Positions 32,046-32,786 of a stretch of DNA of 64,000 bases are shown here, piece by piece. The first letter of the stretch is position 1. The number at the start of each line of letters is the position of its first letter. Made by a program: the position numbers and the translations under genes. Below the pieces are notes generated by a model that was given only the letters and a program-made list of their open reading frames with translations, did not search any database and was not told the DNA's origin. Origin of the DNA: Actinomycetota bacterium (GTDB lineage: Bacteria > Actinomycetota > Acidimicrobiia > Acidimicrobiales > AC-14). The stretch covers positions 1 through 64,000 of the forward strand of contig JBFMCT010000005.1 in assembly GCA_040754375.1 (NCBI GenBank). Direction: 5' to 3'.

Positions 32046-32786
32046 TCAGACGGCCTTGGGCAGGAGCTGCTCCGCCAGCCCGACCAGTGCGCGGACGGCG
32101 GGGGCGTCGGGTGCGTGGTCGATGGGGGCCACCCCGTAGCGGTCGGCCTCGCGGATCTTGGGGTCGTCAGGCACGGCGATGACCTCGATGCCCGGGAAAG
32201 CGGCCCTGATGGTCTCCACGTCGGCCTCGTGGCGGATGCGGTTGGCCACGACCACGACCCGCTGGAGCAGCTTCTCCTTGGACAGCTCCACGGCCCGGAG
32301 GCCCACTTCGATCGACTTGGGGGTGGCCTCGACGACGACGATCACGGTGTCGACCTTCTGCTCCTCCAAGCGGGTGAGCGTGCCCACGCCCGCCTCGAAG
32401 TCGGCGATGACCGTGTCGTTGGGATCGAACTCAGCGGACCCGAGCAACTGCTCGGGAGAAAGCCCACATCAGAGTCAGCCGGGTTCGGGGTTGTCGATGC
32501 GGGACACCACGGCCAGCCTCACCCCGTCAGGCCCGTCGGACCCGTAGCGGCCGATGAGGGTGTCCCAGGTGGGTGCGTGCTCCTCCTGGCCTTCGTCGAG
32601 GGCCTGGCGCATGGAGATCAGCCGCTCGGTCTCCTCGTCGCCCACCCCCAGCGAGATACCCAGGTTGGGGTTGGAGTCGCAGTCGAGAGCGACCACCGCT
32701 TGACCGCCGCGGGCCAGCGTGCGGGCGATGACCGACGAAGTCGTCGTCTTGCCCGAACCGCCCTTGCCGACCACTGCCAGCTTCAT
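32046..32786 (-). CDS. CooC-type ATPase, predicted double-selenocysteine protein (Sec104, Sec106)
   Basis: Read through two in-frame TGA codons (32475-32477 and 32469-32471), a 246-residue protein. ATG 32786 is preceded by GAGG; a GTG at 32807 is an alternative. Walker A is KGGSGKTT (residues 8-15), then LDCDSNPNLG, and DFEAGVGTLTR as the Walker B region. At codons 104-108 the sequence reads [TGA]-L-[TGA]-C-G, aligned exactly with the U-T-C-G site of CooC1. The frame is otherwise intact, and a 7-bp hairpin with an AGUU loop follows the second UGA. In this family the CxC at the dimer interface binds Ni or Zn, so both Cys appear replaced by Sec, with Cys107 adjacent. A pseudogene with two stops four bases apart is the alternative and much less likely. 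Confidence 0.82.
32439..32477 (-). promoter_or_regulatory. Two in-frame UGAs plus candidate bacterial SECIS hairpin (CooC2)
   Basis: UGA codons occupy 32475-32477 and 32469-32471 (minus strand). Twelve nt after the second, a perfect 7-bp stem CCCGAGC/GCTCGGG (32450-32456 with 32439-32445) closes an AGUU tetraloop (32446-32449) with G at position 2. The loop starts 19 nt after the second UGA and 25 nt after the first; both values fall in the bacterial SECIS range. The hairpin could serve both codons. Confidence 0.72.

Follow-up and report, generated by a model that had tools for sequence, protein, structure and literature searches.

The window analysed here is a 64,000-nucleotide stretch of DNA from an Actinomycetota bacterium of the order Acidimicrobiales (assembly GCA_040754375.1, contig JBFMCT010000005.1, positions 1 to 64,000), and on its minus strand lies a gene, here called CooC2, that encodes a CooC-like P-loop ATPase if two in-frame UGA codons are read through. 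Taking UGA as a residue, the translation is 253 amino acids long with selenocysteine (Sec, U) at positions 111 and 113, in the motif PEPG-U-L-U-C-G. An RNA hairpin resembling the bacterial selenocysteine insertion sequence (bSECIS) follows closely, and the locus is arranged as listed.

32046 to 32807, minus strand: CooC2 gene, a CooC-like P-loop ATPase via two read-through UGAs; it ends with an ordinary UGA stop (32048-32046) and probably starts from the ATG at 32786
32475 to 32477, minus strand: first UGA (UGA1), codon of residue 111, which matches Cys112 of C. hydrogenoformans CooC in the alignment
32469 to 32471, minus strand: second UGA (UGA2), codon of residue 113, which matches Cys114 of that CooC; homologs L100 and L105 have UAG here
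32466 to 32468, minus strand: Cys codon directly behind UGA2, giving the motif U-L-U-C (CxCC in Cys relatives)
32439 to 32456, minus strand: bSECIS-like hairpin CCCGAGC-AGUU-GCUCGGG, loop 19 nt past UGA2 and 25 nt past UGA1

Bacteria insert Sec by means of SelB, which, with Sec-tRNA(Sec) and bound to a hairpin downstream of the UGA, recodes that codon. The perfect 7-bp stem with an AGUU loop that an earlier note on this DNA had described after the second UGA is indeed present (minus strand, 32456-32439), with 12 nt and 7 bp separating UGA2 from the loop and an energy of -12.8 kcal/mol. It lies within the limits published for bSECIS elements (a stem of 4-16 bp, a loop of 3-9 nt with G at its first or second position, a distance of 16-37 nt and a minimum free energy (MFE) at or below -7.5 kcal/mol), which were taken from section 5 of PMC13188914. 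By itself the hairpin is not significant; its conservation is. The 71-nt context has a z of -1.86, with 10 of 200 shuffles equally stable, and its MFE fold retains just the inner 4 bp of the stem, while the MFE fold of the 45 nt past UGA2 contains the full 7-bp hairpin. Behind 14.9% of 7231 codons in 16 open reading frames (ORFs) of the window stands a stem of at least 7 bp with a G-loop at 16-37 nt, and behind 0.7% one with precisely the observed layout (distance 19-20 nt, loop of 4-5 nt), the gene list used here and for stop usage being our rough choice of ORFs. Since comparable stems are frequent in this GC-rich window and the shuffle test is not significant, the lone hairpin is weak evidence. 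An Rfam scan of the whole window at gathering scores gave zero matches.

The comparison with homologs carries the case. Among 118 relatives, including the window's genome, 15 have a close CooC2 match, and in 14 of these the best ortholog (55-99% identity) has one or two in-frame UGAs; that of G054 has none. Wider draws found CooC2 orthologs in 11 of 395 genomes from the class and in 12 of 396 from the phylum; among named genomes, a scan found them in records titled Acidimicrobiia, Nitriliruptorales, Egibacteraceae, Euzebyales, Geodermatophilaceae, Pseudonocardiaceae, Nocardioidaceae, Thermoleophilaceae/Solirubrobacteraceae and, once, Deltaproteobacteria. Our CooC2 table holds 64 rows, all scoring 200 bits or more (9 of 73 were removed as identical sequence), in which the pair at 111/113 is UxU in 30, CxU in 15, CxUAG in 2, CxC in 17 and UxC in none; Cys is thus the aligned residue in 17 rows. 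Two loci, L029 and L068, are one gene at zero distance, so that the 47 stop-bearing rows represent 46 genes. A CooC2-like paralog at L039 1091-1810 (G111:C2) and L040 489-1232 (G008:C221) has the motif PGUGGLSAGQLLA with one UGA, is two residues shorter, has no partner Cys and forms the stem GGGC-AGUU-GCUC.

All 47 stop-bearing rows have a stem of at least 6 bp with an AGUU loop at the same offset (-8.0 to -14.8 kcal/mol), and all satisfy the bSECIS limits. The core GAGCAGUUGCUC is identical in every one of them, as are the twelve core bases GAGCAGTTGCTC, in a region that the Cys rows spell in many ways. The earlier note had taken loss of the stem from homologs with UGA at both codons as decisive against it, and all 30 such rows keep the stem. 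The covariance analysis it had called for found 97.1% of stem cells paired and 18 cells changed on both sides, where shuffles gave 7.0 and none of 500 came as high, so the stem pairs covary. Of the distinct rows, 22 have C-G and 13 have G-C as the outermost pair; at the third pair C-G, U-G and U-A occur, and for slid versions of the stem pairing falls to 17-47%. Stem and stop are associated across the table (Fisher 1.4e-11, kinship ignored). These data bear on the explanation that the gene is a decaying pseudogene, or its stops sequencing errors, and that the hairpin arises merely from encoding the conserved peptide E-Q-L-L at high GC content. That peptide does encode the inner stem, similar single hairpins are frequent, and three of the 17 Cys rows (L046, L110, L117) have at least 5 bp at that offset. 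However, the same stops recur in all 47 rows, across many assemblies and three cultured strains (Pseudonocardia nigra, Geodermatophilus chilensis and Blastococcus saxobsidens), and resampling of synonymous codons from each gene's own usage gives a 6-bp stem at the site in a mean of 8% of trials per row, against 47 of 47 observed. Together with the third-position bias and the matching UAG codon and CUA anticodon described below, this leaves decay or error a negligible chance.

The idea that one hairpin could serve both UGAs stands as far as spacing goes, 25 and 19 nt being compatible with it, and goes no further: the downstream UGA or UAG occurs alone in 17 of the 64 rows and the upstream UGA alone in none, which suggests that it may be the second codon to which the hairpin is adapted.

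Conserved protein flanks the UGAs on both sides. Past them changes concentrate at the third codon position in five CooC2 pairs (63-88% identity) and two pairs of the paralog CooC1 introduced below; between the window and L017 CooC2, for example, 14, 6 and 58 changes fall on positions 1, 2 and 3. This pattern indicates that the downstream part is translated. Were UGA simply read as Trp, Cys or Gly, through a changed code or a near-cognate suppressor and without Sec, translation would likewise continue, and the Cys at the same position in relatives would suit such a reading. UGA is, however, the commonest stop of window genes (24 of 39 readable ends among 40 listed, one end that read GCC being left out of the count) and terminates CooC2 and CooC1 too, which argues that the code is unchanged; with the Sec machinery present and the UAG rows paired with a CUA tRNA-Sec, we regard an ordinary amino acid at these codons as very improbable.

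Of that machinery, the window's genome has a tRNA-Sec (64.8 bits, anticodon UCA), selA (409 bits) and, adjoining it, selB (273 bits). The strongest single point for recoding comes from Geodermatophilus chilensis (L100) and Blastococcus saxobsidens (L105), in which the second CooC2 codon is UAG, the hairpin is kept and the tRNA-Sec (65 bits) has the anticodon CUA; eight other tRNA-Sec genes of the same 12-genome set, like that of the window's genome, have UCA. Codon and anticodon thus appear to have changed together at the second CooC2 site. UAG-Sec was reportedly the subject of work by Mukai in 2016. A tRNA-Sec(CUA) is described from three Geodermatophilaceae genomes, with FDH, UGSC and AhpC selenoproteins, in passages of PMC5330540; these share with our rows the decoding of UAG by tRNA-Sec(CUA), and CooC is not named in those passages. 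In the 12-genome set, three Cys versions (L094, L098, L110) come from genomes in which the best candidates are no tRNA-Sec, or are absent, and three others (L092, L108, L109) are Cys versions although a tRNA-Sec is present. Counting only matches of at least 58 bits, tRNA-Sec occurs in 13 of 14 genomes with UGA-containing CooC2 and in 59 of 104 others (p = 0.009), which is weak support because Sec is common in the order. Recoding as the earlier note proposed it is accordingly backed from several sides, by the exchange of stop and Cys, tRNA-Sec, selA and selB, covariation, the downstream third-position bias and UAG in UAG-reading genomes.

A second gene of the family lies on the plus strand of the window.

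7106 to 7864, plus strand: CooC1 gene, a CooC2 paralog with one in-frame UGA, motif GUTCGSH
7415 to 7417, plus strand: UGA of CooC1
7433 to 7447, plus strand: CooC1 hairpin GCUGC-CGUGC-GCAGC, loop 20 nt past the UGA, G at loop position 2

The recurrence in CooC1 of a similar distance (20 against 19 nt) and of G at loop position 2 on a different stem was found as the earlier note had it, though the CooC1 hairpin is weaker and at -6.4 kcal/mol misses the -7.5 limit. The two RNAs are not unrelated, as had been supposed: CooC1 and CooC2 are paralogs, 35% identical, and their hairpins, which differ in sequence and place, are separate solutions within one family. Six UGA rows (CooC1 of the window and five orthologs) share GCUGC-CGUGC-GCAGC with the loop 20 nt past the UGA. 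A table of 68 UxC relatives, confined to the pattern G-[U/C/UAG]-x-[C/U/W/G]-x-x-H, includes records named SAR324, Gemmatimonadaceae, Verrucomicrobia, Acidobacteria, Chloroflexi and Deltaproteobacteria; a stem of at least 5 bp at 19-21 nt is found in 18 of its 21 UGA rows and none of its 47 Cys rows. The three UGA rows without it are L045, which the end of its locus truncates and which is the same gene as L114, and the SAR324 rows L126 and L130. The stems GCUGC/GCAGC, GCCAC/GUGGC, GUCAC/GUGAC and GCCGC/GCGGC are interchangeable among these relatives, with 17 double-change cells against 6.6 in shuffles. CooC paralogs with Sec and no second Cys were also seen, at L011 1504-2244 (own genome C11:60771) and L127 8001-8747, with the motifs GUTW and GUTGG; lacking that Cys, they cannot form a CxC-type metal site as in CooC.

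The protein itself is best compared with CooC of C. hydrogenoformans (CooC1 of that organism; PDB 3kje, 3kjg, 3kjh and 3kji), the nickel ATPase of CO dehydrogenase maturation. An alignment over residues 8-212 (E 2.6e-16) places CooC2 residues 111 and 113 at C112 and C114, and CooC2 shares the deviant Walker A motif (GKGGxGKT, in CooC GKGGxGKTT) and the place of the CxC pair. It differs in having Sec codons at both of these conserved positions, and in many of the loci examined its neighbours are [NiFe] hydrogenase genes. According to PMC6006190, Cys112 and Cys114 of CooC bind zinc, with nickel competing, at the interface between two subunits. Across 30 rows, archaeal records among them, neither position varies when UGA is counted as Cys. 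The predicted CooC2 fold (predicted local distance difference test 88) is of the MinD/NifH/CooC kind; the CooC1 structure 3kje ranks 15th, with a template-modelling score of 0.69, among MinD, FleN and NifH folds, so CooC cannot be told from these by fold alone. NCBIfam 20.0 and Pfam gave only general MinD/ParA/CbiA/ArsA-type matches to CooC2, with no selenoprotein model above cut-off.

The two UGAs might instead work as a switch, the truncated 110-residue protein being functional when selenium is scarce and Sec insertion being regulatory. Two close UGAs would make insertion costly, and the truncated product would retain the P-loop, but the residues invariant past the UGAs, such as D136, E138, G140, R146 and D153, make this explanation very unlikely.

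Clues to the client of CooC2 come from the gene neighbourhood, both at its own locus and at the start of the window.

32800 to 33576, minus strand: CooC3, a partner ATPase that lacks the CxC motif and adjoins CooC2 in 32 of the 35 loci with CooC2
31501 to 32043, minus strand: small membrane protein that follows CooC2 and is conserved in L087-L090
42 to 875, plus strand: [NiFe] hydrogenase large subunit, C-terminal part; among solved structures closest to the actinobacterial-type HofG (5aa5, 204 bits)
1506 to 2126, plus strand: NifU-domain protein of the hydrogenase cluster
2676 to 3200, plus strand: HycI-type hydrogenase maturation protease

The 5' end of the large-subunit gene is cut by the window edge, and its active-site motif, NPCMPCTTH, has Cys and not Sec. 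A large subunit is encoded in 11 of the 35 CooC2-bearing loci, and a large subunit, HypC, HycI or NifU-like gene in 19; that of L146 matches HofG 5aa5 at 459 bits, the next best at 187, and is of actinobacterial type. Across 16 genomes with such hydrogenase loci, HypB is above cut-off in 4, HypA in 6 and neither in 10, the last including Geodermatophilus, Blastococcus and Haloechinothrix isolates. CooC-type ATPases are plausible candidates for nickel supply where HypA and HypB are missing. A Sec-containing CooC could also serve another metal enzyme, or its UxU pair a redox role. This is favoured by the distance of 31 kb between CooC2 and the hydrogenase gene of the window, by the BNR-repeat proteins beside CooC2 there as in L087-L090, and by the HypA and HypB that the genome retains. 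The hydrogenase or maturation genes of the 19 loci and of the UxC loci L119, L145 and L166 point the other way, as does the position of CooC1, 4 kb beyond the window's own hydrogenase cluster. We judge a client other than hydrogenase doubtful, if a serious possibility.

The BNR-repeat (sialidase-like) proteins flank CooC3-CooC2 at 33573-35111 and 29932-31422 in the window, and likewise in L087-L090. At 13212-16224 lie a small membrane protein, a HAD-like protein and two other genes; in L090, L100 and L132 their homologs recur close to genes for CooC or hydrogenase. Two places on opposite strands, 20366-21076 and 27699-28283, contain near-identical stretches with a peptide string in common; each has a gene with MNLRKKVS, and they look like a duplicated secreted-protein gene.

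We read the CooC2 hairpin as a bSECIS that would direct Sec into the metal site of a CooC-like ATPase, with probable nickel hand-over to hydrogenase, and put the probability of this reading at about 0.92. The ribosome would reach the two in-frame UGAs while the hairpin just downstream holds SelB and Sec-tRNA(Sec), and, going by the known bacterial mechanism, Sec would be inserted at residues 111 and 113 instead of termination. The product would have U-L-U-C where CooC has its zinc- and nickel-binding C-x-C pair between two subunits, and would probably load or hand over a metal, most likely nickel, to an actinobacterial-type (group 1h) [NiFe] hydrogenase. The homologs make CooC2 a near-certain selenoprotein; its supply of nickel to hydrogenase is plausible from the neighbourhood and the genomes lacking HypA and HypB.

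Several points weigh against this reading, besides the frequency of chance stems and the three Cys rows that keep one. G038 (L027) has two UGAs and a good hairpin, yet no tRNA-Sec was detected in its 92% complete draft. A quick tree gives 6 Sec/Cys changes and just 4 independent pairs on well supported branches; with kinship so considered, the hairpin agrees with Sec in 3.8 of the 4 pairs on average and is never opposed, with a sign-test p of 0.125. Four of the seven stem pairs are invariant, the association in the UxC table (Fisher 1e-13) ignores kinship, and the two SAR324 UGA rows have just 3 bp. The 19 of 35 loci are a raw tally, the missing HypA and HypB may reflect draft incompleteness, and their presence in the window's own genome means that replacement is not universal. 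The support for the reading, strong as it is, is comparative and drawn from sequences.

Among related systems, the CobW-related selenoprotein NF041053 (UxxC), which we take to be a metal-chaperone-like P-loop protein of the G3E GTPase family, differs in that CobW is absent from the Pfam matches of CooC2. It is listed in the family table of PMC13188914. The bSECIS model in the same source shares with CooC2 the UGA, the hairpin geometry, the loop G and the Sec machinery, whereas in CooC2 a single hairpin follows two codons spaced 6 nt apart. HypB, described in PMC9164220 as an NTPase that supplies nickel to [NiFe] hydrogenase, with ATPase versions in archaea, differs in that its model TIGR00073 has no CooC2 match at E<=0.001 and in that the metal residues of CooC2 are predicted to be Sec. 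The 2026 table of 119 prokaryotic selenoprotein families, as consulted in PMC13188914, contains neither an ATPase of the CooC or MinD type nor a UxU motif, and no publication on Sec in CooC was found in searches of open-licence literature, which cannot prove absence. UGA with a bSECIS is a known mechanism; as far as tested, the Sec-containing CooC family, its pair of Sec residues at a metal site and its UAG form are new. Ordinary ORF calling cuts such genes at the UGA, so they are easily missed.

We offer tentatively, at somewhat less than even chances, a broader proposal. Sec-containing CooC would be a wide family (UxU, CxU, UxC and single-Sec forms, in Actinomycetota and in the SAR324, Gemmatimonadaceae, Verrucomicrobia, Acidobacteria, Chloroflexi and Deltaproteobacteria records) in which the four selenolates of a UxU dimer hold one nickel, and it would replace HypA and HypB in maturing high-affinity [NiFe] hydrogenases that consume atmospheric H2, making this H2 sink selenium-dependent in these bacteria. 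We know of no precedent for a metal site of four selenolates holding one nickel. The findings raise the question of where actinobacterial-type [NiFe] hydrogenases obtain nickel in bacteria without HypA and HypB. If our reading is true, P-loop metal-chaperone ATPases of the CooC type would be a new class among selenoproteins, in which selenium is a predicted metal ligand and not part of a redox motif.
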